Part shown: one piece after another, positions 29,409-44,611 of the stretch | Numbering within the stretch: the stretch's first letter is position 1 | Layout of the letters: the number at the start of each line of letters is the position of its first letter | Assembly (NCBI GenBank): GCA_030148985.1 | Contig: JASBSJ010000033.1 | Coordinates: forward strand, 1-64,000 | Direction of reading: 5' to 3' | DNA length: 64,000 nucleotides | DNA from: Sphingopyxis sp. | Lineage (GTDB): Bacteria; Pseudomonadota; Alphaproteobacteria; Sphingomonadales; Sphingomonadaceae | Program-made: the position numbers and the translations under genes | Notes under the pieces: model-generated | Seen by the model: the letters and a program-made list of their open reading frames with translations, nothing else | Told to the model about the DNA's origin: nothing | Database searches by the model: none

Positions 29409-30686
29409 TTATTTTGCCTCGCGCGCGACCTCGCGCCAGCCGATGTCGCGGCGGCAGAAGCCGCTGGCGAAATCGATTCGGTCGAGCGCGGCATAGGCGC
29501 GTGCTTGCGCCTCGGTCACACTCTTGCCCGTCGCAGTGACATTCAGCACGCGCCCTCCCGCGGCGACGAGCGTGCGGTCCTCGCGCGCGGTGCCGGCGTG
29601 GAAGACGCGCACGCCCCCCGCTTCGGCATCGGCGATGCGGCGGATCGCGCCGCCTTTCTCCGGCGTCCCCGGATAGCCGTTTGCCGCCATCACGACGGTG
29701 AGCGCATAGTCGTGCAAAAAGGCGGGCGGTTCGGCCTGGGCCAGCTGGCCCGTCGCGGCGGCGTGGAGCAGCGCAGCAAGGTCGCCGCGGAAGCGCATCA
29801 TCAGCACTTGGCATTCGGGGTCGCCGAACCGGCAATTATATTCGATCAGCTTCGGCTCTTCGGCGGTGAGCATCAGCCCGGCAAAGAGCACGCCGACATA
29901 AGGCGTGCCCTCGGCGGCGAGCGTTTTGACCGTCGGGCGGATGATGCGATCCATCACCGCCGCCTCAAGGTCGGCGGTCAGGACGGGGGCGGGGCTGTAG
30001 GCGCCCATGCCGCCGGTGTTCGGACCCGTGTCGCCGTCGCCGACGCGCTTGTGGTCCTGCGCGCTGCCGAAGGCGACGACGTTCTCGCCATCGGAAAGCG
30101 CGAAGAAGCTCGCTTCCTCGCCGGTCATGAACTCCTCGATCACCACCTCGGCGCCCGCACCGCCAAACGCGCCGGCGAACATGTCGGCGACCGCGGCTTC
30201 GGCGTCGGCGCGCGTTTCGGCAATGATGACGCCCTTGCCCGCGGCGAGGCCGTCGGCCTTGATCACCACGGGAATCGCAAAGCCGTCGAGCACGGCGAGC
30301 GCTTCGTCGGCGCTGGTGCAGCGGACATAGGCGGCGGTCGGGATGCGCGCGCGCGCGCACAGATCCTTGGTAAAGCCCTTCGACCCTTCGAGCCGCGCGG
30401 CGGCGGCCGACGGGCCGAAGACCGGGACGCCGATGGCGCGCAGCCGGTCGGCGAGGCCCGCGACGAGCGGCGCTTCGGGACCGACGACGACGAAATCGAT
30501 GCCATGCGCGCGCACGAAGGCGATCAGGCCGTCGAGATCATCGGCGGCAATCGGCACACATTCGGCGTGGAGTTCGATTCCCGGGTTGCCCGGCGCGGCA
30601 TAGAGCTTGGCGCAGCTTGGCGATTGTGCCAGTTGCCAGCTCAGCGCGTGTTCGCGGCCCCCCGAACCGATGAGCAGGATATTCAT
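29409..30686 (-). CDS. purD: Phosphoribosylamine-glycine ligase
   Basis: 425 residues, standard length. The protein starts [15 protein letters not shown], conserved in the family; ATP-grasp motifs include [12 protein letters not shown] in the middle and V-L-F-A-G-L-M later. It joins glycine to phosphoribosylamine in purine synthesis. Its start codon at 30686 overlaps the start codon of the divergent xseA gene. Confidence 0.96.
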
Positions 30687-32112
30687 GGCAGTTCCTTTTC
30701 CCGATGAAGCGCCCGGCAACGGCACCGACGCGCGGCTGTTAGCCGAGGAGGCGCCCGGCGACAATGTGCCGCCGCTGTCGGTCAGCCAATTGTCGGCGGC
30801 GATCAAGCGGACGGTCGAGGACGGTTTTGCGCGCGTGCGCGTGCGCGGCGAGCTGTCGGGGGCGAAGCGCGCGGCGTCGGGACATTTTTATGCGGCGCTG
30901 AAGGACGATAATGCGCTGATCGACATGGTGATGTGGAAGGGGCAGGCGGCGCGGCTCGCCTTCCGGCCCGAGGACGGGATCGAGGTGATCGCGACCGGCA
31001 AGCTCACCACCTATCCGGGGCGTTCCAAATATCAGCTCGTCGTCGAAAGCCTGGAAATCGCGGGCGAAGGCGCGCTGATGCTGCTGTTCGAAAAGCTGAA
31101 GGCGCGGCTGGGCGGCGAGGGGCTGTTCGATCAGGGGCGCAAGCAGCCGCTCCCCTATCTGCCGCGCACGATCGGGGTGGTGACGTCGCCGACGGGTGCG
31201 GTGATCCGCGACATTCTCCACCGCCTTGCCGACCGCTGCCCGACGCATGTCATCGTCTGGCCGGTGCTGGTGCAGGGCGAGGGCGCGGCGGCGCAGGTCG
31301 CCAAGGCGATTCGCGGGTTCGACGCGCTGGCACCCGGCGGGCCGGTGCCGCGCCCCGACCTGGTGATTGTCGCGCGCGGCGGCGGGTCGATCGAGGATCT
31401 GTGGGCGTTCAACGAGGAGGTGGTCGTGCGCGCGATCGCCGATTGCCGCATCCCGACGATCAGCGCGGTCGGACACGAAACCGACGTGACGCTTGCCGAC
31501 TATGCCGCCGACATGCGCGCGCCCACGCCGACCGCGGCGGCCGAGATGGCGGTTCCGGTGCGCGCCGAGCTGCGCGCGCAGCTTACGACCTGGGGCGGCC
31601 GGATGATCGGCGCCGCGAACCGGCATCAGGCGCTGGGCGGCGAGCGGCTGGCGGCGCTCGCGCGCCATTTGCCGCGACGCGACGCGCTCTATGCACCGCA
31701 GCGCCAGCGGCTCGACGATGCGGGCGAGCGGCTTGACCGCGGACAAAGGCAGCGACTGACGATGCTGGGCGAGCGGCTCGGCGCGCGCGGCGCGGCGCTG
31801 CGGCCGAGCTTGCTCGCGCGGGCGTGGGACCGCGACCGTGCGAAGCTCGACGGGCTGGGGCGCCTGCTCGCGTCGCTCGACCCGCGCGCGCTGCTGTCGC
31901 GCGGCTATGCGATGGTGCGCGATGCTGGCGGCGCGATCGTGACCAGCGCGGCTAAGGCGCGTGACGCGGGGCATCTGCGGCTCCAGTTCGCCGACGGCGA
32001 ATTGCCCGTGACGGTCGGGGAGGGCGGCGATCCCGCGCCGTCGCCCGCGCCGCGCCCGGCGCGCAAGCCGCCGCCGCCCGCGCCGAAACCGGGGCAGGGC
32101 GAGCTGTTCTGA
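30685..32112 (+). CDS. xseA: Exodeoxyribonuclease VII large subunit
   Basis: 475 residues. The N-terminal OB-fold (about 30-130, with V-S-Q-L-S-A-A-I-K and R-V-R-G-E-L-S-G) is followed by the catalytic domain with [14 protein letters not shown] near residues 168-181, and then [14 protein letters not shown]-x-R-A-P-T-P near residues 270-289. It degrades single-stranded DNA with XseB. ATG at 30685 is the best start, though a GTG at about 30766 would still keep the OB-fold. The C-terminal tail is Pro/Ala-rich. Confidence 0.95.
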
Positions 32113-32188
32113 TCGCGCAGGGGTGGCCCGCGCAGCCGATGCTGCTATAGTTCCGCCACACTCTTCCCGCCGAACGGATATACGAACC

Positions 32189-32401
32189 ATGTTGATCGCC
32201 AGCCGCAACCGCCTCGCCCGTCTGCGCTATGGGCCGAACGGCTTTCGCGTCGTGTCGCCGGGCGATCATGTGCTGTGCGCGGTGACCGGCGTCGCGATCG
32301 GGCTCGATGAGCTACGCTACTGGTCGGTGGCGCGGCAGGAAGCCTATGCCAGCGCCGCGCTGTCGGTGCAGGCCGAACTGGACCCCGCGCGCACCGCATG
32401 A
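32189..32401 (+). CDS. DUF2093 domain-containing protein
   Basis: 70 residues, the full length of this small alphaproteobacterial family. The conserved core is A-R-L-R-Y-G-P-N-G-F-R-V-V-S-P-G-D-H-V-L-C-A-V-T-G near residues 9-34, followed by L-D-E-L-R-Y-W-S-V-A-R-Q-E-A-Y near residues 41-55. The function is unknown. It overlaps the M23 peptidase gene by 4 nt. Confidence 0.88.
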   Translation: MLIASRNRLARLRYGPNGFRVVSPGDHVLCAVTGVAIGLDELRYWSVARQEAYASAALSVQAELDPARTA

Positions 32402-33312
32402 TGGCCGCTGCGGACGGGCGGTGCGCCGCGGCGCTTGCGCTGCTGATACTGGCGCCGGGGTGCGTTCCTGTAGCTGAACCCGAAGCCGGGCCGGCGCCTG
32501 CCATTGCCGCTCCGACTTCGACTCCCGCGCCGCCGCCCGCCCCGGTGCGCCGCGAACTGGTGCTGTCGGGCGCCGCCGAACAGGGCGCGGTCGTCACCGG
32601 GCGGGTGTCGGCGGGCGTGCGCAGCCTGGCGCTGGACGGCAAGCCGGTTCCGGTCGCGCCCGATGGCGGCTTCCTCATCGGCTTCGACCGCGATGCGGGC
32701 GCGCAGGCCGAACTGGTTGCGACTTTCGCCGACGGGCAGCGCATCCGACGCCCGATCGCGGTGGCCGCGGGCCGCTGGCAACTCGAGCATATTAACGCGC
32801 CTTACCGTGGCAGCGCGTCGAGCGATGCCGAATTCGCCCGCCGCCGCCCCGCCGAACTGGCGGCGATTGGGGCGGCGCGCGCTAGAGAGGTCGAATCGGA
32901 CGGATGGCGGCAGGCGTTTCGCTGGCCGGTGATGGGGCGGCTGTCGGGTTTTTTCGGGGCACAGCGTATCTATCAGGGCAAGCCCGGCGCCTATCACAGC
33001 GGCACCGACATCGCGGTGCCGGCGGGAACGCCGTTCGTCGCGCCCGCCGACGGGGTGGTGACGCTGGCGGCAGACGCCCCTTTCACGCTCGAGGGACATC
33101 TGCTGATCGTCGATCATGGCATGGGGTTGTCGAGCGCCTTCCTCCATTGCCAGCGACTCGACGTAAAGGTCGGCGACCGCGTCGTTCAGGGGCAGCGGCT
33201 GGGCACTGTCGGCCGCACCGGTCGCGCGACGGGGCCGCACATGCACTGGGGATTGAGTTGGCGCGGTTCGCGACTGGACCCCGGCAAGCTTGCCGGACCG
33301 ATCGGCGGCTGA
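32398..33312 (+). CDS. M23 family metallopeptidase lipoprotein
   Basis: 304 residues with lipobox L-I-L-A-P-G-C. The LytM/M23 domain is in the C-terminal third: Y-H-S-G-T-D-I near residues 198-204 and H-M-H-W-G near residues 281-285 supply the zinc ligands, and the catalytic H is in F-L-H-C-Q. It would cut peptidoglycan cross-links or act as an amidase activator at the outer membrane. The preceding region (about 40-130) is a beta-rich domain with no assigned role. Confidence 0.9.
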   Translation: MMAAADGRCAAALALLILAPGCVPVAEPEAGPAPAIAAPTSTPAPPPAPVRRELVLSGAAEQGAVVTGRVSAGVRSLALDGKPVPVAPDGGFLIGFDRDAGAQAELVATFADGQRIRRPIAVAAGRWQLEHINAPYRGSASSDAEFARRRPAELAAIGAARAREVESDGWRQAFRWPVMGRLSGFFGAQRIYQGKPGAYHSGTDIAVPAGTPFVAPADGVVTLAADAPFTLEGHLLIVDHGMGLSSAFLHCQRLDVKVGDRVVQGQRLGTVGRTGRATGPHMHWGLSWRGSRLDPGKLAGPIGG

Positions 33313-33322
33313 TCCGCTTGCG

Positions 33323-33380
33323 GCGATGCCGCGATGAAATCGTAACCGATGAAACAAAATGTCGCAAAATGCGGCATCGC
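33323..33380. repeat. 10-bp inverted repeat after the M23 gene
   Basis: GCGATGCCGC at 33323-33332 and its complement at 33371-33380 with a 38-nt spacer, in the 274-nt gap before the TonB-dependent receptor. No T-run follows. Nothing else convincing, including no clear promoter, was identified in this gap. Confidence 0.4.
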
Positions 33381-33586: not shown

Positions 33587-36500
33587 GTGAAGAAAACCCA
33601 ATTTTCCATGCTGAAACTGGGCGCGGCACCGCTGGTGCTTAGCGTTGCAATGGTTTCGGCGCCTGCTCAGGCGCAAGACGCTCCCAATGACGATGGTGAA
33701 GCGGCGATTGTCGTCACCGGTTCGCGTATCGCACGTCCGAACCTCGATTCGAGCAGCCCGGTCGCGGTGGTTACCGGCGATGCGACGGTCGAAAATGCGG
33801 ATATCACGCTGGACACCTTCTTGAACACGCTGCCAGGCGTGAACCCGGCGGGCACGACGACGTCGAACAACCCCGGCAACGGTGGTCAGTCGAACATCGA
33901 TCTTCGCGGCCTTGGCGCCAACCGCAACCTGATCCTGATCAACGGTCGTCGCCCGATGGTGTCGCAACCGAACCAGACGGTCGATCTTAACACGATCCCG
34001 CAGGGTCTGATCGAGCGCATCGAAATCGTGACCGGTGGTGCTGGTGCGGCTTATGGCGCCGACGCCATCGCGGGCGTCGTCAACATGATCCTGAAGGACG
34101 ATTTCGAAGGCATCGATCTTCGCGCGACCTATTCGAACTCGGTTCCCAAGACCGACGCGCGCGAATATCAGATCAGCGGCATCATCGGCGGCAACTTTGC
34201 CGACGGCCGTGGTAACATCGCCTTCTCGGCCGAATATTCGAAGCGTCAGGGGCTGATTAAGGCGCAGCGTGACTTCGCGTCGCAGGCAACCTCGACGACC
34301 AGTTCGTTCCCCACCGGCTCCTTTTCGAACAGCGCGTCGAACCCGATCAGCCAGGCTGCGGTCGATGCACTTTTCGCGAGCTACGGCGTTGCGGCGGACC
34401 AGTTGCCGCGCGTCAACCAGCTGGCGTTCAACTCGGACGGTTCGCTGTTCGGCGTTGGTACGTTTAACAGCCCGGTCGAGGTCGCGAACTTTCGGTACGA
34501 TCTCGATTCCCCGGCCAATCCAAATTTGAACTATTTTCCGGATTTCTATTCCTACAACTTCGATATCGTGAACATTCTGACCTTGCCGCTTGAGCGCAAA
34601 TCAGCGTTCTTGACCGCGAAATATGAAATTTCGCCGGCTTTTGAAGTCTTCACCCAGGCAGGCTACACTGACTATTCGTCGGCAACGGCGCTGGCGCCGA
34701 CGCCCGTCAGCACGGGTATTGTCAACACGGACAGCGATGCGTCGGTGCTGAATGCTCGCTCGCCGCTCGTTGCACCCGGTCAGCGCATTACCGGTTTCGT
34801 TATCCCGACAACCAATCCTTTCATTTCGACGGATTTGGCTTCGCTTCTGGCCAGCCGCGCCGGCGACGATCCGCTTCTGACCGGTTCGGGTGCGACCGAA
34901 GGCTTCCGTATCGGTTATCGCTTCCTCGGCACCGGTCTTCGCGAACAGCAGCTCGATAACGAAGTCATTCAGGGCCTTATCGGTCTGCGCGGCGAATTTG
35001 CGCCGGGCTGGCGATATGAAACCTACTACAGCTGGGGTCAGACGACGATTGATCAGCGGGCGACGGGGAACGTGAACGTTCAGCGCGTTCAGGAACTGCT
35101 TGAAGCTCCCGATGGTGGCGTCAGCCTTTGCGACGGCGGCTTCAATCCGTTCGGCATCCAGCCGTTGTCGGCCGATTGTGTCGCCTATGTCGATGAAGTC
35201 GGCGTGACGCAGACGGTCTTCACGCAAAAGATCGCCCAAGCTTATGTTTCGGGTGAACTCGCCGATCTGCCGGGCGGCCCGCTCGGGGTTGTCTTCGGTG
35301 TCGAGCAGCGCAAGTTCAAGTATAGCTTCGATCCGGGCGCTCTGTTTGGTCCGATTGCCGGTTTCAACACCGGTACGCCGGACCTTGGAACCAACAAGTT
35401 CCTCGATTTCTTCGGCGAACTTCGTGCTCCGATCATGGACACGCTGGAACTCTCGTTGACCGCCCGCCATTCGAAAAGCGACTTTAACGACATAGCGAAC
35501 GGCGTTAACGGTGCACCTTCTAAAGACTGGGCTTACGGCGGCACTATTAGCTGGTCGCCGATTGATCAGGTTCGCATACGTGCCGGCTATCAGCATTCGG
35601 TTCGCGCTCCGAACTTCGGCGAACTTTTCTCGGGTGGCGGTAGCTTCCCGCAGATTTTCGACCCTTGTTCGGTCAACAGCCAGTTCCGGCAGAATGGCGG
35701 CGCCGAAGCCCGTCAGCTCTGCATCGATACAGGCGTGAGCGCAGGCACGGTGGATACCTTCGTGGCGACTCCGGGTGCCCAGGCTTTCGTGACCATCACT
35801 GGCAACCCGAACCTGAAACCTGAAAAGTCGGATACCTTCACGGTCGGCGCAGTGTTCCAGGCTGGGGGCTTCACCGGCTCGATCGACTATTACAACATCA
35901 AGATCGAGGACACGATCTTCGGACCCGACGTCAACGAAATCATCGCATCCTGCTATGGTTACAATGACATAAACGCGGGCCTCGACGATGCGAGCCCCTA
36001 TTGTGAGGGCCTTTTCCGGTCGAACAACAATATCGCTGCAATCTTCCTTCCGGAGGAACTTGGCGGCGATCCGGCGACCGGTTATTTCCAGGCGGTTAAC
36101 CAAGGGTCGGTCAAGACTTCGGGTATCGATGTCCAGCTCGGCTATCGTTTGCCGACGCCGTTCATCAATGAAGACAGCGCGCTCAACATGAACCTGCTGC
36201 TCAACTATCTGATCGACTTCAAGAACGTCGGTCTTGGTGGTCTGAAAACCGACTATGCCGGCACTGCCTCCTATTTCGGTGCCGGCCTGGGAACCAGCTT
36301 CCCGCGCTGGAAGGCGACGCTCAATACCAAGCTGAACATCTCTCGCGAACTCAGCTTCGATACCCGCGTCCGCTTTATCGACTCGATGGCGAACCGCGCT
36401 TCGCGCCAATATGCGGGCGAAACGTTTACGGGTCCGGGCAGCGTCGTCTACTTTGACTTTGCCCTTCAGGCCGAAGTTGAAGCGCTGACCTTCCGTGTCG

Positions 36501-36625
36501 GCTTGAACAACGCTTTCGACAAGAAGCCGCCGACGTACGCCCCGAACGTCCAGTCGGGCACCGATCCGTCGTTGTACGACGTCATTGGTCGCCGCGCTTT
36601 CGTCTCGGCGCGTCTGCGCTTCTGA
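33587..36625 (+). CDS. TonB-dependent receptor
   Basis: 1012 residues. The GTG at 33587 has AAGGGA 8 nt upstream and opens a signal peptide (M-K-K-T-Q-F-S-M-L-K to A-Q-A); an ATG at 33608 is the alternative. The TonB box A-I-V-V-T-G-S-R-I is at about residues 39-47, the plug domain spans about 55-165, and the C-terminus ends in the expected aromatic residue (V-S-A-R-L-R-F). The barrel is large and carries several cysteines in loops. T-ending codons are more frequent than in the neighbours. Substrate is unknown. It leads a locus of oxygenases and sulfotransferases. Confidence 0.93.
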   Translation: MKKTQFSMLKLGAAPLVLSVAMVSAPAQAQDAPNDDGEAAIVVTGSRIARPNLDSSSPVAVVTGDATVENADITLDTFLNTLPGVNPAGTTTSNNPGNGGQSNIDLRGLGANRNLILINGRRPMVSQPNQTVDLNTIPQGLIERIEIVTGGAGAAYGADAIAGVVNMILKDDFEGIDLRATYSNSVPKTDAREYQISGIIGGNFADGRGNIAFSAEYSKRQGLIKAQRDFASQATSTTSSFPTGSFSNSASNPISQAAVDALFASYGVAADQLPRVNQLAFNSDGSLFGVGTFNSPVEVANFRYDLDSPANPNLNYFPDFYSYNFDIVNILTLPLERKSAFLTAKYEISPAFEVFTQAGYTDYSSATALAPTPVSTGIVNTDSDASVLNARSPLVAPGQRITGFVIPTTNPFISTDLASLLASRAGDDPLLTGSGATEGFRIGYRFLGTGLREQQLDNEVIQGLIGLRGEFAPGWRYETYYSWGQTTIDQRATGNVNVQRVQELLEAPDGGVSLCDGGFNPFGIQPLSADCVAYVDEVGVTQTVFTQKIAQAYVSGELADLPGGPLGVVFGVEQRKFKYSFDPGALFGPIAGFNTGTPDLGTNKFLDFFGELRAPIMDTLELSLTARHSKSDFNDIANGVNGAPSKDWAYGGTISWSPIDQVRIRAGYQHSVRAPNFGELFSGGGSFPQIFDPCSVNSQFRQNGGAEARQLCIDTGVSAGTVDTFVATPGAQAFVTITGNPNLKPEKSDTFTVGAVFQAGGFTGSIDYYNIKIEDTIFGPDVNEIIASCYGYNDINAGLDDASPYCEGLFRSNNNIAAIFLPEELGGDPATGYFQAVNQGSVKTSGIDVQLGYRLPTPFINEDSALNMNLLLNYLIDFKNVGLGGLKTDYAGTASYFGAGLGTSFPRWKATLNTKLNISRELSFDTRVRFIDSMANRASRQYAGETFTGPGSVVYFDFALQAEVEALTFRVGLNNAFDKKPPTYAPNVQSGTDPSLYDVIGRRAFVSARLRF

Positions 36626-36647
36626 TCTAAGCACCGTCGAACAATCA

Positions 36648-36680
36648 GAGGGCGGGACTGGTGTCCCGCCCTCTTTTTTT
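36648..36680 (+). terminator. Intrinsic terminator after the receptor gene
   Basis: Stem GAGGGCGGGAC (36648-36658), loop TGGT, complementary arm 36663-36673, then seven T residues. It lies 22 nt past the receptor stop and 13 nt before the TPR-sulfotransferase start, so the next gene depends on readthrough or its own promoter. Confidence 0.85.
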
Positions 36681-36693
36681 ATAGACAGCGTCG

Positions 36694-38682
36694 ATGACCG
36701 TATCTGACCGATTGCGCGCCGCCTATGCGGCCTATGCCAAGGGCGATTTCGCCACAGCCAGAGCTCAGGGCGAAGCGGCGCTCGGTGCGCAGCCAACCAA
36801 CCCGACGGTGCTTCAATTGCTCGGCGTGGTTTCGTGCCAGACAGGTGCACCGAAACAGGGCGCCGATTACCTGCGGCGGGCGATCGCCAGCGGCGGCGAT
36901 ACCAGCGACAATCGCATCAACCTCGCACGCGCTCTGGTCGATCTCGGCGAGCTTGATGAAGCAGCGCAAATATGCGCCGAGGGAGATGTTGCCGAATCGG
37001 GCGAGCTGCAAGCAATGCAGGCGCAGATACTGAAAGCGCAAGGTCGCACCACGGAAGCCAGCTGGACCTATGAAAAGCTGGTTACGGATAACCCCGAAGA
37101 TTTCCGTGCATGGAACAATCTGGGCAACGCCCGACACGAAAGCGGAGATTTCGAAGGCGCGTTGAGCGCGTTTCAACAGGCGCGGCAGATTGATCCTAAA
37201 TCATCGCTGATCCATACAAATCTCGGACGCGTCCTGATCTCGATGGACCGGTACGAGGATGCGTGTCTGATGCTGGAAAAAGCGGCGCTGCTCGCGCCGG
37301 ACAAGTCGGAGCCGTTGCTCGAACTGGGGCGGGCGCTCACCAATATAGGCCATGCCGAGGGCGCGCTTCGCGCGCTCGGCGCCGCTGCACGACTAAACCC
37401 CTCCGATCCCGAGATATTTCTCGCTATCGCCGTCGCGTTTATGGATGCGTCCAATGATGAACAGGCTGAAAAGGCGCTTCGCTTTGCCATCAAGGCCGAT
37501 CCGTCATTTGCCGCCGCCTATCTGAATCTCGGTCTCATTCTTGAGAGAGCGAACCGGGTCGAAGATTTGCGCGAGCTCTACGCGTCGGCGGCGTCAGCCG
37601 GGATCGCGCGCGACGAACTGGACTATTTGCACGCGCTGCTGCTGGCGCGCGACGGCGACCGTGCGGGGGCTCTGGACCTGATCCGGGATCTTCAATCGCC
37701 GGCGATCAATGCGTCGATCAAGGCGCAATTCGCCGGACAGCTCGCTGATCGTCTTGGCCGGATCGACGAGGCCCTGTATTTCTATGAAGAGATGAATCGG
37801 GCCCAGGCGCAAAGTCCGATGGGGGTTGGCGTCGATCGCAGCGCCTATCAGCGGGCGATTGCCCGTCTGGAGGAACAGACGTCCGCGGCGTGGTTTGCAG
37901 AATGGTCCGACCCGCCGGCACCGGCTGAACGAGCGACGCCTGCGTTTCTCGTCGGCTTCCCGCGGTCGGGAACGACCTTGCTCGACACCATTTTGATGGG
38001 CCACAGCGGCACCCATGTGCTCGAAGAATTGCCGATTATCGAGCGATTGTCCCAGTCGCTAGGCGACTTCGACGCTATTCGCACGCTTGACAGTGCGGAC
38101 GTCGCCAATCTGCGCGACCGTTATTTCCAGGAACTCGACAAGCTTTCGTCGCCGCCGCCGGGGAAGCTGGTGATCGACAAGAATCCGCTGTCGATGATCC
38201 GCATTCCGCTGATCCACCGCCTGTTTCCTGATGCCAAGATCATCCTGGCCATGCGCCACCCGTGCGACGTGGTGTTGAGCTGCTATATCCAGAACTTCAA
38301 ACCGACCGAATCGATGGCAAGCTTTCTGGATCTGCCCAACGGCAGCCGCACCTATGACCGGATCTTCCGATATTGGGAAAAATGCCGGGAGGTCTTTCCG
38401 CTCGACGTCCATATGCTTCGCTATGAGGCGATGGTCGCCGATGTCAGCGCGTCAACGAGGCCGCTGTTCGATTTTCTCGAGCTCGATTGGGAGGAAAGCG
38501 CGCTTGATCACCAGAAGACGGCCGTGGAGCGCGGCTATATCCGAACGCCAAGTTACGCGCAGGTGATGGAGCCTATATATTCATCCGCCAGCGGCCGCTG
38601 GAAGCGATATGAACCCCAAATGCGCGAGATTTTGCCGATTCTGCAACCGTGGGTCGAACGCTACGGCTATAGTCTCGATTAA
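36694..38682 (+). CDS. TPR repeat protein with C-terminal sulfotransferase domain
   Basis: 662 residues. About ten tetratricopeptide repeats fill residues 1-390 (for example A-W-N-N-L-G-N-A-R-H-E-S-G-D-F near 139-153). The sulfotransferase domain starts at about residue 415 with the PAPS 5'-phosphosulfate motif G-F-P-R-S-G-T-T (421-428); A-M-R-H-P-C-D-V is the 3'-phosphate motif. It would transfer sulfate to a protein or small molecule, with the TPR part presenting the partner. No signal peptide, so cytoplasmic. Its last 4 nt overlap the converging oxygenase gene. Confidence 0.88.
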   Translation: MTVSDRLRAAYAAYAKGDFATARAQGEAALGAQPTNPTVLQLLGVVSCQTGAPKQGADYLRRAIASGGDTSDNRINLARALVDLGELDEAAQICAEGDVAESGELQAMQAQILKAQGRTTEASWTYEKLVTDNPEDFRAWNNLGNARHESGDFEGALSAFQQARQIDPKSSLIHTNLGRVLISMDRYEDACLMLEKAALLAPDKSEPLLELGRALTNIGHAEGALRALGAAARLNPSDPEIFLAIAVAFMDASNDEQAEKALRFAIKADPSFAAAYLNLGLILERANRVEDLRELYASAASAGIARDELDYLHALLLARDGDRAGALDLIRDLQSPAINASIKAQFAGQLADRLGRIDEALYFYEEMNRAQAQSPMGVGVDRSAYQRAIARLEEQTSAAWFAEWSDPPAPAERATPAFLVGFPRSGTTLLDTILMGHSGTHVLEELPIIERLSQSLGDFDAIRTLDSADVANLRDRYFQELDKLSSPPPGKLVIDKNPLSMIRIPLIHRLFPDAKIILAMRHPCDVVLSCYIQNFKPTESMASFLDLPNGSRTYDRIFRYWEKCREVFPLDVHMLRYEAMVADVSASTRPLFDFLELDWEESALDHQKTAVERGYIRTPSYAQVMEPIYSSASGRWKRYEPQMREILPILQPWVERYGYSLD

Positions 38683-39398
38683 TTAGCGGCGGCACTGCGC
38701 AGCCAGCCGGTGATCGACAGTCGCGGTTCGGGTGCGAACGGCGTAACATAGCTGACGCTGTGGCGTTGCGGCACCGAAAAGAGCCGCAATGCCCCCATTT
38801 TTGGCGCGAAACCTTGCTCGATATTGCCCTTGTCGTCGTGGAACATCAACAGCCCCCCCCATTCGGGGCGCCACGCCGGGGTCAGCGAGAAAACATAGGC
38901 CGCCTGCCGATTCTTTCCGGCAACATCATCGTCGTGGCAAGTGAGGAAATGTCCTTCGCCGTAACTGGTTGCCTGTCCATCAGCAAAGCTTGCCGAACCG
39001 CCGAGCACATAGTTGAGTCGATCGATTACCGGGGTCGATGAGAGGAATGCAACAAAACGGGACACAAGATCGTCGCCGCCCGCGCTGCCTCCGTCGGGTG
39101 AGCGGATCGATTTGTAACGATATTGAAAGCCCGCGCGACCGGCATTGACGACATGCTGGTCAAGCTCGCGTCGTTGGGCGGCGCTGAGGTTCGCGACCGC
39201 CTCGCGCGACAGCTCATATACTTTGTCGCCGGCGTTCAGGACCAGCTTCCAATCCCTGCGGCCGCAGAGGTAGGTACGGAGGATTTCTGCCTGGCCATCG
39301 GCAAGCAAGTCGGGGATTTCCAAACGACGCTGATGATGGAAATACGCCCTCAAGGCATCCCAATCGATGCGATCCGCCAACCGAAATTCAAAGTCCAT
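38679..39398 (-). CDS. 2OG-Fe(II) oxygenase, prolyl-hydroxylase-like
   Basis: 239 residues with the full metal and cosubstrate set: His155 and Asp157 (H-x-D in T-C-H-D-D-D), His213 (P-Q-R-H-S-V) and Arg226 (P-E-P-R-L-S-I-T-G-W). This is the prolyl 4-hydroxylase-like branch, which uses 2-oxoglutarate and oxygen. It is convergent with and overlaps the TPR-sulfotransferase gene. An AT-rich divergent gap of 132 nt separates it from the downstream operon. The substrate is unknown; protein side chains are plausible. Confidence 0.85.
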   Translation of the reverse strand: MDFEFRLADRIDWDALRAYFHHQRRLEIPDLLADGQAEILRTYLCGRRDWKLVLNAGDKVYELSREAVANLSAAQRRELDQHVVNAGRAGFQYRYKSIRSPDGGSAGGDDLVSRFVAFLSSTPVIDRLNYVLGGSASFADGQATSYGEGHFLTCHDDDVAGKNRQAAYVFSLTPAWRPEWGGLLMFHDDKGNIEQGFAPKMGALRLFSVPQRHSVSYVTPFAPEPRLSITGWLRSAAAN

Positions 39399-39469
39399 CT
39401 TCTGCTCAGTTCTCGAGATTTTATGCTGGACAGCGTTACATTAATTTACATTAGGTTTTGCAATTTTAT

Positions 39470-39497
39470 TTGACGGTCCGGCCGCTTTAAGTATCAT
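39470..39497 (+). promoter_or_regulatory. Sigma-70-type promoter
   Basis: TTGACG at 39470-39475 and TATCAT at 39492-39497 with a 16-nt spacer in an AT-rich stretch, 33 nt before the start at 39531. Directly upstream, TTACATTA occurs twice in direct orientation (about 39436-39453), spaced 10 bp apart, a possible regulator site. Confidence 0.55.
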
Positions 39498-39530
39498 TTC
39501 AAGATCGATTATCCATAGCGAGATATCCCT

Positions 39531-39788
39531 ATGCGCACCATTATCTGCACCGTCATCGTGGCGGCCACTCTGCTTCACTCCGCTCCTGCATTCGCGGAGA
39601 AAAATAGCGACGCAGCAGTTGTGAACCCCAAGGACCGCATGGTTTGCAAAAGAACCCAACGCACAGGAACCCGATTTCAAACCAAGGTCTGTAAGACCGC
39701 GGGCCAGTGGGATGCAATTGCCGAGCAGCATCGTCGCGATGTCAGCGAAATGGTCGATCGTCCCCAAGTGGAAATCCGTCGGGAGTAA
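39531..39788 (+). CDS. Small secreted protein with two cysteines
   Basis: 85 residues with a signal peptide ending A-P-A-F-A at residue 22. The mature 63 residues contain a C-x15-C arrangement (M-V-C-K-R to K-V-C-K-T) that could form one disulfide, then a charged C-terminal helix. Similar small proteins with this paired-cysteine pattern are common in sphingomonads and have no known role. It is the first gene of a tight operon, 5 nt before the first beta-hydroxylase-like gene, which makes it a possible but unproven substrate of the cassette. Confidence 0.7.
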   Translation: MRTIICTVIVAATLLHSAPAFAEKNSDAAVVNPKDRMVCKRTQRTGTRFQTKVCKTAGQWDAIAEQHRRDVSEMVDRPQVEIRRE

Positions 39789-39793
39789 ACCGG

Positions 39794-40741
39794 ATGAAGC
39801 TGGGGATGCCGCTGGTCAAGCTGCCAAGGCAATATTGCGCGGATACGCTCGCGAGGGAGGTCGCAGCCCTGCCCAAATCGGCGTGGCTGCCGCATCCGGG
39901 ACGGATTCCTGGCAATGATGCGGTGCCGCTGATTACCCCCGCCGGACAGATAACGAATGGCTTTGCGGGACCGATGGCGCCGACCGAGGCCCTTGAACAG
40001 TGCCCGTACATCAAGGAAATACTCGCCGACCTCGGCGCTGTCTGGGGACGTAGCCGCCTGATGGGGCTGGCGCCGGGGGCAATCGTGCCCGAACATGTGG
40101 ATGTCGGCTATTATTGGCGCACGCATATCCGTATACACATTCCCGTCGTCACCAATCCGCAGGTCGCGTTCAGCTGCGACAAGGAAACGGTCCATATGGC
40201 GCCGGGCGAATGCTGGTTGTTCGACAGCTTTTGCCTTCATGATGTTCGCAACGGCGGCGACCAGAAGCGCGTCCATCTGGTTCTCGATACGGTCGGCGGC
40301 GAAAAGCTATGGGCGATGATCGCCGATGCCAAACGGTCCGGCCGTGATGGCCAGCCGATACAGCATATTGCGCCCGGATCAGTCCCCGTTGCACCGCTGG
40401 CCTTCGAACAGGTCAATCTGCCGACAATCATGTCGGTCTGGGAGGTGCGCTGCCACATTGACTTCCTGCTTGATCAATGCCCCGCAGGTCCGGATCGCGA
40501 TGCCGTCGCGGCGCGGCTGGAACAATTCGCAAATGCGTGGGGCGCGCTGTGGGCACAATATGGCACCCGGTCGTCGGGCATTGCCGTCTATCGCCAACTG
40601 ATCGATGCGGCGCAGCGCGACCTGCGCGCCATGGGGGCGCGGCGCATCCTGCTCGCCAACAATCAGGTGCCGCTCGACAGGGCGCTCACCGAACTGATCT
40701 TCATGGTGGCGGCACCCGATTCGCTCCCCGCGGCCGCCTGA
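39794..40741 (+). CDS. Aspartyl/asparaginyl beta-hydroxylase-like oxygenase (first)
   Basis: 315 residues. The start at 39794 has a GGGAG stretch upstream. The double-stranded beta-helix core has H101-x-D103 (H-V-D), H149 (L-H-D) and R159, the pattern of Asp/Asn beta-hydroxylases, which need only iron and 2-oxoglutarate. The additional C-terminal 140 residues are helical and unlike the short family members. It lies 4 nt before the sulfotransferase gene. The natural substrate is unknown. Confidence 0.87.
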   Translation: MKLGMPLVKLPRQYCADTLAREVAALPKSAWLPHPGRIPGNDAVPLITPAGQITNGFAGPMAPTEALEQCPYIKEILADLGAVWGRSRLMGLAPGAIVPEHVDVGYYWRTHIRIHIPVVTNPQVAFSCDKETVHMAPGECWLFDSFCLHDVRNGGDQKRVHLVLDTVGGEKLWAMIADAKRSGRDGQPIQHIAPGSVPVAPLAFEQVNLPTIMSVWEVRCHIDFLLDQCPAGPDRDAVAARLEQFANAWGALWAQYGTRSSGIAVYRQLIDAAQRDLRAMGARRILLANNQVPLDRALTELIFMVAAPDSLPAAA

Positions 40742-40745
40742 ACCC

Positions 40746-41369
40746 ATGATCGTTTCGCATCAACATCGCTTTATCTTTGTCGCTATTCCGAAGACGGGGA
40801 CGCATTCGGTTCGCCAGGCCTTGCGTGTGCATATGGGCGACGGAGACATGGAGCAGGCACGCCTGTTCGTTGAAAAGAGTTTTCCCATCCCCGAGATCGC
40901 GCGAATGGGCCATGGCCATATAAGCTTCGCCGAAATCCGACCGTTTCTGGCCGAAGATAAATTCGCAAATTATTTCAAATTTGCCTTTGTGCGCAATCCG
41001 TTCGACCGTTTCATTTCCTACTGCGCCTTTGCTACCAGCCGCGAAGGCAGTTTCGAACGCGATCCGCAGCGGGTGATGCGCCATTTTCTTTTCATCGCAC
41101 CACCGCATCAGCATATCATATTCCGCCCGCAGCATCTGTTTCTGACCGATCGCGATGGCCGCTTACTGGCTGATATGTTGGGAAAGGTCGAAGAAATGCA
41201 GCCATCCTATGATGCGATTTGCGCCAGAATTGGCATCCCTTCCACTCCCTTGGATCACGCCAATCGATCGCGACGGAGCAACTACCGCGATTATTATGAT
41301 CAGGAACTGATCGACGGGGTTGCGAAAATCTATGCCCGGGATCTGGAGCTTTTCGGCTATGATTATTGA
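40746..41369 (+). CDS. Sulfotransferase family protein
   Basis: 207 residues. The 5'-phosphosulfate-binding loop P-K-T-G-T-H-S is at residues 15-21 and the 3'-phosphate-binding motif R-N-P-F-D-R-F at residues 83-89. The type resembles the carbohydrate or tyrosylprotein sulfotransferase family (Sulfotransfer_2). The short length leaves out most acceptor-binding insertions. It is third in the operon 39531-41993. Confidence 0.88.
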   Translation: MIVSHQHRFIFVAIPKTGTHSVRQALRVHMGDGDMEQARLFVEKSFPIPEIARMGHGHISFAEIRPFLAEDKFANYFKFAFVRNPFDRFISYCAFATSREGSFERDPQRVMRHFLFIAPPHQHIIFRPQHLFLTDRDGRLLADMLGKVEEMQPSYDAICARIGIPSTPLDHANRSRRSNYRDYYDQELIDGVAKIYARDLELFGYDY

Positions 41370-41387
41370 CCGGAAAGGCTGAACGCG

Positions 41388-41993
41388 ATGTATCCCAACC
41401 CCAGGAAGACGACGAGCATCCGCCGACTGGGCGGGGTCGATATCGCCGCGTTAAAGGCCGCGGTGATGGCAATTCCTGAAGAATTGTGGAGCGCAGAAAA
41501 CGCGGACAAGCCTAATCGCTTTGAGGCGCTCGATGCGACGGCGCATATCGTCTTTCGCTTCATTTCGAACATGCGCGACTGGCGCAGCAGCTATTCGCGG
41601 CCCCTGTGGGCCGAGTGGGAGCCGCTGCTGACCCCCGTTCTTGCGGCGGCGACCACCGACTATGGTTATAGGAACGGAGTCTTCCCGAGGATCATGCTCG
41701 CCCGTATGCCCGCGGGGGGGGTGATTCAGCCGCACCGTGATGCCAATCCTGCAGCGAAATGGCCGCACAAGATTCATGTGCCGATCCAGACGAATGACCA
41801 GGTCCAGTTTCGTATCGAGGACCAGAGCTATCACATTACCGAGGGCGAGGCGGCCGAGGTCAATAATATGGGCGTGCATGCGGTGGTGAACGGCGGCGAC
41901 ACGCCGCGCATTCACCTGATCTTCGAATATTATGACGCCGATCAGCCCGAGCCCGAATGGCTCGCAACGCTCGCTGCGCAGCAGCCTGCCTGA
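41388..41993 (+). CDS. Aspartyl/asparaginyl beta-hydroxylase-like oxygenase (second)
   Basis: 201 residues. The same metal set is seen as in the first paralogue: H116-x-D118 (P-H-R-D), H164 (M-G-V-H-A-V) and R174. Only the beta-helix core is present. It differs greatly from the first paralogue outside these motifs, so the two probably act on different sites or substrates. It is the last gene of the operon and converges on clpB. Confidence 0.87.
   Translation: MYPNPRKTTSIRRLGGVDIAALKAAVMAIPEELWSAENADKPNRFEALDATAHIVFRFISNMRDWRSSYSRPLWAEWEPLLTPVLAAATTDYGYRNGVFPRIMLARMPAGGVIQPHRDANPAAKWPHKIHVPIQTNDQVQFRIEDQSYHITEGEAAEVNNMGVHAVVNGGDTPRIHLIFEYYDADQPEPEWLATLAAQQPA

Positions 41994-42031: not shown

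Positions 42032-44611
<2,580 letters not shown>

Follow-up and report, generated by a model that had tools for sequence, protein, structure and literature searches.

The stretch of Sphingopyxis sp. DNA analysed here (the window; 64,000 nucleotides) contains, at positions 33587–41993, seven genes encoding a TonB-dependent receptor (TBDR), a TPR-sulfotransferase (TPR-ST), a 2-oxoglutarate (2OG)-Fe(II) oxygenase of prolyl-hydroxylase type (P4H), a small protein (SEC), two PF05118 hydroxylases (HYD1 and HYD2), and a second sulfotransferase (ST2). All seven open reading frames (ORFs) were confirmed, and Pfam agrees with the families named in the original prediction, made from the sequence alone, except for SEC, which matched no Pfam family. 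The start of TBDR was taken as the GTG at 33587, a longer ORF opening at 33359; that of HYD1 is approximate (~39794). The 3' end of the minus-strand P4H gene overlaps TPR-ST by 4 bases. The left border genes are presumably xseA-like and M23-peptidase-like, as named from their translations. The GC content of the seven genes (0.52–0.63) is lower than that of the four flanking genes measured (0.665–0.72), suggesting that the cassette was gained horizontally or by replacement.

Table 1. Genes of the receptor locus and its borders (window coordinates)
Feature	Position	Strand	Evidence and remarks
TBDR (TonB-dependent receptor, type A)	33587..36625	+	PF07715 5.3e-20, PF00593 1.2e-30; signal-peptide-like start, plug and barrel
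TPR-ST (TPR-sulfotransferase)	36694..38682	+	TPR families and PF13469 8.6e-34
P4H (2OG-Fe(II) oxygenase, prolyl-hydroxylase type)	38679..39398	-	PF13661 (2OG-FeII_Oxy_4) 1.2e-22
SEC (85 aa, signal-peptide-like start)	39531..39788	+	Family alignment; recurrent member of such loci
HYD1 (PF05118, Asp_Arg_Hydrox; C-terminal helical part)	39794..40741	+	PF05118 1.2e-18
ST2 (Sulfotransfer_2 sulfotransferase)	40746..41369	+	PF03567 6.8e-17
HYD2 (second PF05118 hydroxylase, ST2 partner)	41388..41993	+	PF05118 2.4e-12
clpB (named from translation)	42032..44611	-	Right border of the site, conserved landmark
Left border genes	30607..33312	+	ORFs alike in length and order beyond the receptor at many clpB-site loci

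The catalytic domain of TPR-ST (approximately residues 405–662) resembles tyrosylprotein sulfotransferase, with TPST1 and TPST2 as the top PDB matches (E-values, 1e-13 to 2e-10). Arg424, Glu445, Lys496, and Ser620 align with the Arg, Glu, Lys, and Ser that have catalytic roles in TPST, and are kept in 62, 62, 61, and 61 of 62 sequences, respectively. In ST2, which has 266 relatives in genome contigs, the PKTGTH loop, Arg83, and Ser91 are invariant in 40/40 aligned sequences; the motif retention noted for both sulfotransferases is borne out. The structure model of ST2 (pLDDT, 90.3) gave weak fold matches, none below an E-value of 0.01, with PAPS sulfotransferases on top. The family PF03567 takes in carbohydrate sulfotransferases, and its members mostly act on sugars.

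The three oxygenases likewise keep the H-x-D...H motif and the Arg residue attributed to them: His101, Asp103, His149, and Arg159 of HYD1 are invariant in 36/36 aligned sequences, His116, Asp118, His164, and Arg174 of HYD2 are kept in 63/63, and His155, Asp157, His213, and Arg226 of P4H in 19/19. The folds nearest to the HYD1 model (pLDDT, 88.6) are free-proline hydroxylases, with AspH matched at 1.2e-6, and no TPR was matched by Pfam in HYD1 or HYD2; a single scanned hydroxylase from a sister locus gave weak TPR matches together with PF05118, in the AspH layout. The PDB matches of P4H are OGFOD1 (3e-6) and 4iw3 (0.006), the Pseudomonas prolyl hydroxylase complexed with EF-Tu. HYD1 and HYD2 also match the lipid A hydroxylase LpxO weakly, and HYD1 the ornithine-lipid hydroxylase OlsC, which, together with the carbohydrate sulfotransferases within PF03567, would be consistent with tailoring of a surface lipid or glycan, the receptor being a co-regulated neighbour. 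Lipid remodelling of Caulobacter under phosphate starvation, as described in the accessible portion of the report on it, is in keeping with such a role. We nevertheless regard envelope tailoring as improbable, as the matches lie far under the cut-offs (HYD1: LpxO, 20.8 vs 500 bits; OlsC, 14.8 vs 450 bits) and one receptor clade is strictly tied to ST2 in the Caulobacteraceae sample described below.

The site next to clpB was then compared among relatives, a clpB match at an E-value of 1e-250 or better being present in 185/196 genomes of the order. Among 80 family genomes (including L133 and L139, which had no readable gene calls and were counted as empty), the site carries a TBDR in 73 and hydroxylases or sulfotransferases of varying types in 48, compared with 0/18 random regions (from 38 positions drawn); TPR-2OG proteins were told apart from TPR-ST with domain models. 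All 48 enzyme-bearing loci also carry a TBDR, and a hydroxylase and a sulfotransferase occur together at 25/80 (Fisher, 8e-5). The remaining 32 loci, mostly TBDR-bearing, have none of the enzymes, and near receptor relatives at 57% and 52% identity also have none alongside. A PiuC-like gene, not one of the seven in the window, is present at only 3/80 sites. SEC, with the conserved core C-x(6)-G-x(7)-C-x-T-x(3)-W in its family alignment, occurs at 26/80 sites and is tied to the presence of sulfotransferases (Fisher, 6e-9); as a single general substrate it was ruled out, since it is missing at 54/80 sites and no SEC was called in the type-B operons described below. Five of the ten closest named loci contain all seven families. 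These conservation counts indicate that the set is more than a chance neighbourhood. A genomic island, in which unrelated genes without a common pathway had gathered at a clpB hotspot, would account for the low-GC cassette and the variable site, but is highly improbable: in the Sphingomonas loci L210–L212 all seven families are found together in rearranged order, recurrent loci exist away from clpB, and the co-occurrence counts largely refute it, the unlinked co-occurrence in Lysobacteraceae (below) ruling out an explanation by the island alone.

Loci of ST2 elsewhere (77 counted; L233, L270, and L282 were dropped from 80, having no ST2 ORF pick) include 36 alphaproteobacterial loci with a tight operon, TBDR–ST2–HYD2–TPR-ST–HYD1, and another type of receptor (type B). 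ST2 follows the receptor gene by ~70 bases and is connected through 4-base overlaps to HYD2 and TPR-ST, followed by HYD1; automatic calls undercount the genes, TPR-ST being hidden by antisense ORFs in eight type-B loci. One scanned type-B receptor scored above the cut-off of TIGR01782 (TonB-Xanth-Caul; 618.8 vs 310 bits), whereas the receptor of the window fell below it (45.6 bits). The operon consists of the receptor and the four enzymes only, without a transporter or scaffold-making gene, and a DUF5690 gene, which we take to encode a transporter, is found near 15/36 of the loci. HYD2 was called near ST2 in 63/77 loci. The original prediction had proposed co-occurrence of receptor and enzymes as a check, and this held in large part: besides the clpB loci, 15 of the 119 Caulobacteraceae genomes sampled have ST2, and exactly these 15 have the type-B receptor (Fisher, 2e-19), the two genes adjoining each other in 14 of the 15. 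It failed at 25/77 ST2 loci without a TBDR within 9 kb, 16 of them from Lysobacteraceae; among the 25 is L214 (with its duplicate, L033), which carries the HYD1–ST2–HYD2 trio.

In Lysobacteraceae, ST2 and HYD1 are usually apart, and yet among 149 genomes HYD1 is present in 25/25 with ST2 and in 17/124 without it (Fisher, 2e-17); in 6/6 Lysobacter genomes examined, HYD1 lies within ~1.3 kb of a TBDR ORF. Altogether, a TBDR and cytosolic-type hydroxylases and sulfotransferases are co-inherited, often as tight operons in Sphingomonadales and Caulobacterales and split in Lysobacteraceae, including named cultured strains of Caulobacter, Brevundimonas, Asticcacaulis, and Lysobacter. Hydroxylase and sulfotransferase also occur as single chains (3/3 long ORFs examined), with no TBDR in the short flank of 2/3 of these fusions. 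A lasso-peptide-like cluster (L096) carries relatives of HYD2 (45%) and ST2 (36%), which makes peptide substrates plausible. A reading of the operon itself as a biosynthetic cluster for a ribosomally made peptide was rejected, as the small ORFs in the 36 type-B loci include no precursor candidate, their most widespread families mapping mainly, in one orientation or the other, to the stretch occupied by a flanking phospholipase C gene, and the 4-base gene overlaps leave no intergenic space for a precursor.

Based on these observations, we tentatively favour, at somewhat short of an even chance, a receptor-linked modification system, acting most likely on a protein that is still in the cytosol, ahead of its export by Sec. 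HYD1, HYD2, and P4H would hydroxylate side chains of the Asp/Asn/Pro type using 2OG and Fe(II), and both sulfotransferases would transfer sulfate from PAPS, TPR-ST to Tyr, with its TPR array gripping the protein, and ST2 to the hydroxyl group put in by the neighbouring HYD2. The TPST-type catalytic site together with the TPR suggests a protein substrate, which may be the receptor itself, or SEC where present; the resulting charged, hydroxylated residues could adjust how a ligand is captured or enters at the outer membrane. One enzyme team would thereby serve different receptors, type A in the window and type B at the phospholipase C/phosphonate loci, and the sharing of the same enzymes by two receptor types is more easily explained if the enzymes act on receptors than if they act on a single ligand. 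A more specific version, in which the nascent receptor is hydroxylated by HYD2 (with HYD1) on residues of the Asp/Asn/Pro type, the new hydroxyls are esterified with sulfate by ST2, Tyr is sulfated by TPR-ST, and the double modification is needed for ligand binding by the receptor, is rather unlikely, its best support being the hydroxylase–sulfotransferase fusions and the coupling of the ST2 and HYD2 genes.

The original prediction, that the set modifies the receptor, its ligand, or a secreted peptide, thus gains from the receptor–enzyme co-occurrence but little from the receptor sequences. With only 4 (type B) and 2 (type A) unpaired receptors for comparison, Tyr at paired-specific conserved positions of type B amounted to 13/28 against 105/374 overall (p = 0.025, uncorrected, 20 residues tested), Phe being equally high, and type A showed no enrichment at such positions (Tyr, 2/31; Asp, 9/44; Asn, 10/50; Pro, 7/45); as a sign of receptor modification, this comparison is weak (type B) or negative (type A). 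Also counted against protein modification are the 17 Lysobacteraceae genomes with HYD1 but no ST2, the free-proline hydroxylases as best folds of HYD1, and the mostly sugar-acting enzymes of PF03567, as well as the enzyme-free TBDR loci at clpB, the TBDR-free ST2 loci, the two fusions with no TBDR in their short flank, and the absences of SEC.

The main rival, a plausible one to which we give somewhat less weight, is that the enzymes hydroxylate and sulfate the compound taken in by the receptor, or that they make a ligand for it that stays bound to the cell. Phosphonate genes, or genes for PI-PLC or phosphocholine-specific phospholipase C, are found at 30/36 type-B loci versus 0/41 other ST2 loci, placing the type-B receptor in an organophosphorus setting, and the fold neighbours of HYD1 act on free amino acids. 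The two receptor types, in unlike settings, share the enzyme team, however, and neither the operon lacking transporter and scaffold-making genes (DUF5690 notwithstanding) nor the TPST-like site with TPR fits easily with a small ligand. The ligand reading has a precedent in CciT–CciO of Caulobacter crescentus: according to the part of that report available to us, CciT is strictly dependent on the cytoplasmic oxygenase CciO, the pair is syntenic, and in the models put forward a ligand is synthesized or oxidized, or an inhibitor is removed. That its authors propose ligand-side models counts against protein modification.

Many environmental bacteria take up nutrients mainly through TBDRs. The genomes of sphingomonads and of Caulobacter each contain many of these receptors, most without a known ligand; a first look gave up to 93 and 69 TBDR candidates per genome. 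The conserved set suggests that an outer-membrane import receptor is linked to a chemical step not described so far: where two hydroxylases and two sulfotransferases accompany a receptor, either a new bacterial protein modification or a new nutrient-uptake step is implied, and the phospholipase C/phosphonate setting of type B points to organic phosphorus as the ligand class. In agreement with the original prediction, our literature search found no description of the receptor–hydroxylase–sulfotransferase combination, and the accessible passages on phosphate starvation and the Zur regulon in Caulobacter, and on ozone-exposed Xanthomonas, do not mention the set.

Several known systems resemble parts of the set. 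With TPST1 and TPST2 as its best solved relatives and the catalytic Arg, Glu, Lys, and Ser kept, TPR-ST resembles these enzymes, differing from them in its bacterial origin and its TPR array; among the seven genes, none resembles RaxX or RaxAB of the RaxST system. HYD1 and HYD2 share with AspH the PF05118 fold and the ligands for Fe and 2OG, but have no TPR, and are closer by fold to proline hydroxylases. P4H has OGFOD1 and the Pseudomonas prolyl hydroxylase (PPHD) as its closest solved relatives and keeps the HxD...H...R residues, although the matches are modest and P4H is linked to a receptor locus. Lasso clusters with tailoring enzymes are approached by L096, and a Pontixanthobacter table, in the portion accessible, lists sulfotransferases and an aspartyl beta-hydroxylase which, judged by cluster numbering, lie close to a lasso B2 protein, PqqD, and Asn synthase; the seven genes of the window, by contrast, gave no Pfam match to the lasso families (PqqD-like B1, B2 protease, and Asn-synthase-like cyclase), and a precursor would not fit between the genes of the type-B operons. 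Closest in arrangement are CciT–CciO and PiuA–PiuC/Fiu–YbiX, in which, as the available parts of the reports state, a TBDR lies beside a cytoplasmic PKHD-type 2OG oxygenase on which its function depends, and the two are co-conserved in Proteobacteria. The TBDR and 2OG oxygenases described here are similarly adjacent and co-inherited, whereas the receptors are different, the oxygenases belong to PF05118 (two) and to an OGFOD1-like PF13661 type, none matching the PiuC-like model, and two sulfotransferases are added. The question raised by CciT–CciO, why import through a receptor should depend on an oxygenase in the cytosol, thereby becomes a wider one.

Two sets of border genes enclose the seven-gene set of the window, and its ORFs and Pfam matches agree with the gene list of the original prediction, the P4H-like gene lying on the minus strand. 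The GC contents of the seven genes are 0.52–0.63 each versus 0.665–0.72 in the four flanking genes measured, the cassette thus being poorer in GC. The source assembly is incomplete (73%), with its 2.94 Mb spread over 86 contigs.

Features of the window and of the compared loci (L-numbers), with positions within each
Stretch	Position	Strand	Feature
Window	left border		xseA-like and M23-like genes (names from translations)
Window	33587-41993		seven-gene set, in the order of the next seven rows
Window		+	TBDR: TonB-dependent receptor (type A)
Window		+	TPR-ST: TPR-sulfotransferase
Window		-	P4H: prolyl-hydroxylase-like 2-oxoglutarate (2OG) oxygenase
Window		+	SEC: small protein, 85 aa, signal-peptide-like start
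Window		+	HYD1: PF05118 hydroxylase
Window		+	ST2: PF03567 sulfotransferase
Window		+	HYD2: PF05118 hydroxylase
Window	right border		clpB (name from translation)
L104	3208-4230		340-aa sulfotransferase-like protein
L142	394-978		CL1, secreted-looking protein of ~190 aa
L162	4272-5009		DUF6065 protein (PF19541)
L096	9555-17590		lasso-peptide-like cluster (G140:C1, about 97.5-105.6 kb)
L096	12455-12598		47-aa precursor-like ORF
L183	12602-14639		window-receptor relative and neighbors
L033	10704-11558		enoyl-CoA-hydratase-like gene (name from translation)

Judged by their motifs, the enzymes of the window look active. The HxD...H...R residues are kept in all aligned sequences of HYD1 (36/36), HYD2 (63/63), and P4H (19/19), which bears out the earlier claim that the three oxygenases retain H-x-D...H and Arg. 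Among PDB entries, the sulfotransferase domain of TPR-ST is closest to TPST1/2 (E, 1e-13 to 2e-10), with CurM as the next sulfotransferase (6e-5), and its four residues aligned to the catalytic Arg, Glu, Lys, and Ser of TPST are kept in 62, 62, 61, and 61 of 62 sequences, respectively. P4H is closest to OGFOD1 (3e-6), followed by the EF-Tu-complexed Pseudomonas prolyl hydroxylase (0.006), both of which modify proteins. The predicted models of HYD1 and ST2 are confident (pLDDT, 88.6 and 90.3, respectively); that of HYD1 matched proline hydroxylases first, AspH next (1.2e-6), and PiuC lower (6e-5), and the matches of ST2 were weak (best E, 0.016), headed by PAPS sulfotransferases.

The 3′ side of clpB (loci L103–L182) is a hotspot with a constant TBDR and changing hydroxylase and sulfotransferase genes. 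clpB was found in 185 of 196 genomes of the order, and 80 genomes of the window's family were chosen by clpB similarity order regardless of content (one at a contig end being skipped); in each, the stretch next to clpB was read, mostly 16 kb long (7.7 to 19.9 kb), with gene types counted by domain models and one representative scanned per new type. A TBDR is present at 73 of the 80 sites, a 2OG oxygenase of any kind at 42, a sulfotransferase of any kind at 31, either enzyme class at 48 (all with a TBDR), both at 25, and SEC at 26; 18 random 20-kb regions of the same family, taken as the control, contained a TBDR in one and oxygenase, sulfotransferase, or SEC in none. The oxygenases comprise a PF05118 type of ~400 aa (18 loci), a TPR + PF13759 type (25), P4H (6), a 2OG-FeII_Oxy_3 type with repeats that we label Sel1-like (4), and a type that we label PiuC-like (3); the sulfotransferases comprise TPR-ST (19 loci) and a 340-aa family without a Pfam match (18), in which a P-loop was seen by eye. 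The site thus retains a receptor, and its enzymes vary. In place of the window's trio, each of the seven other sampled genomes that share its genus carries at clpB the 340-aa sulfotransferase along with the PF05118 type of 400 aa. SEC, whose relatives are scarce (28 in 8 genomes, 14 of them at the clpB site), tracks sulfotransferase presence (counts of 22, 9, 4, and 45; Fisher, 6e-9). We also observed the CL1 family, with a sub-threshold VasI match, at 32 of the 80 sites, and, in the G141 locus, the DUF6065 protein flanked by SEC and the receptor.

Scanning of genome contigs with the ST2 alignment gave 266 relatives, of which the best 80 were examined and 77 were usable. These 77 loci contain HYD2 in 63, HYD1 and TBDR within 9 kb in 47 and 52, respectively, and TPR-ST in 38, as counted before the re-reading of missed genes. 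The ten closest are all titled sphingomonads: five have all seven families (L204, L207, and L210–L212, the last three with members rearranged yet still clustered), three are contigs of 3–5 kb (L206, L208, and L209), L203 has no SEC call and keeps the window's gene order beside an 859-aa ORF of clpB size, and L205 has neither SEC nor P4H calls.

Another receptor type (type B; TIGR01782, 618.8 bits in the one scanned) heads a five-gene operon, TBDR–ST2–HYD2–TPR-ST–HYD1, in 36 loci among the best 80 of the 266 relatives, from hosts including Caulobacter, Brevundimonas, Asticcacaulis, Phenylobacterium, Sphingomonas, and Novosphingobium. The genes are spaced by ~70 bases after the TBDR, then by 4-base overlaps, and then by ~4 bases. 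In eight loci without an automatic TPR-ST call, the gene was present at its place on re-reading; L234, L239, and L256 stop at a contig edge, and L271 and L274 have no room for HYD2. ST2 is present in 15 of 119 Caulobacteraceae genomes, and exactly these 15 have a receptor of at least 67% identity (Fisher, 2e-19), the two genes being at most 0.5 kb apart on the same strand in 14 and on separate contigs in one; the next-best receptors show at most 51% identity, and the eight genomes having only those are without ST2. Genes for phosphocholine-specific phospholipase C (PC-PLC), PI-PLC, or phosphonate metabolism (phosphonatase, PhnR-like, and Phn-HD) lie ~10 kb away or nearer in 30 of the 36 type-B loci, and in none of 41 other ST2 loci or 18 random regions, the PC-PLC, phosphonatase, and FAD oxidoreductase assignments being above the NCBIfam cut-offs and the PhnR and Phn-HD assignments below them.

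A split arrangement is seen in Lysobacteraceae. No TBDR lies within 9 kb in 25 of the 77 ST2 loci; 16 of these have record titles naming Lysobacter, Lysobacteraceae, or Pseudoxanthomonas, with HYD2 called in 13 of the 16. In three loci whose genes were read individually, genes that we take to be prfC and a hemolysin-III gene adjoin the ST2–HYD2 pair. In all six such genomes tested, HYD1 is located away from ST2, with a TBDR ORF within ~1.3 kb of it (immediately adjoining in L283, L284, L285, and L287, at 0.85 kb in L286, and at ~1.25 kb in L288, with small ORFs between). Across 149 Lysobacteraceae genomes, ST2 was found in 25, HYD1 in 42, both in 25, and HYD1 alone in 17 (Fisher, 2e-17), the two genes being mostly on separate contigs or distant, and ~9 kb apart in one genome (G443). 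Eleven of the 17 genomes with HYD1 alone have a HYD1 open frame of 625–715 aa, and the three long frames examined are single chains of HYD1 and a PF13469-type sulfotransferase (model hits, 2e-19, 7e-18, and 7e-14), with a TBDR immediately upstream in one and none in the short flank covered for the other two. These fusions link hydroxylation and sulfation on one predicted substrate. All three (L299, L300, and L301) adjoin an inorganic-pyrophosphatase-like gene, as named from its translation.

Because the enzymes use PAPS and 2-oxoglutarate as co-substrates and show no export signals by eye, the hydroxylases and sulfotransferases would act in the cytosol. We tentatively favor a protein as the predicted substrate of the enzyme team, with the receptor as the first choice and SEC as the second, on the grounds of the TPST-like site with TPR, the OGFOD1-like P4H, relatives in a peptide cluster, a single enzyme team shared by two receptor types, and the lack of a scaffold or transporter gene in the operon. 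The peptide cluster is the lasso-peptide-like L096, with relatives of HYD2 (45%) and ST2 (36%); it also contains PqqD-like, kinase-like, and Asn-synthase-like genes (names from translations) and additional sulfotransferase-like genes. On comparison of 33 receptors with the enzyme set alongside (paired) and four without it, Tyr in type B was paired-specific in 13 of 28 (p = 0.025, uncorrected for the 20 residues compared), with Phe similar; in type A (five paired versus two unpaired), Tyr gave 2 of 31, and Asp, Asn, and Pro were not enriched. Neither comparison thus establishes modification of the receptor. Two close relatives of the window receptor, in L183 (57%) and L184 (52%), have none of these enzymes alongside; the neighbors of the one in L183 are an O-methyltransferase and a protein of 324 aa that has no Pfam match. 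HYD1–ST2–HYD2 is present with no TBDR nearby in L214 (the same trio as L033); in L033, from one genome, the enoyl-CoA-hydratase-like gene lies within the trio, and the setting is phenylacetate-like by gene names from translations.

Processing of the receptor's ligand by the enzymes, instead of protein modification, is the main alternative and only somewhat less likely, the above grounds for a protein being opposed to it; ligand-side models are put forward by the authors of the report on CciT–CciO, a TBDR–oxygenase pair of Caulobacter crescentus. This pair shows dependence of a TBDR on an oxygenase of the cytosol, and CciT was found to be still made in the absence of CciO. As originally stated, the combination of receptor, hydroxylases, and sulfotransferases has no described pathway that we found in the openly licensed full-text literature. 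The protein-modifying team proposed here resembles the receptor-plus-cytosolic-oxygenase systems in joining a TBDR with a cytosolic oxygenase, and differs from them in its different and multiple enzyme families and in its sulfotransferases.
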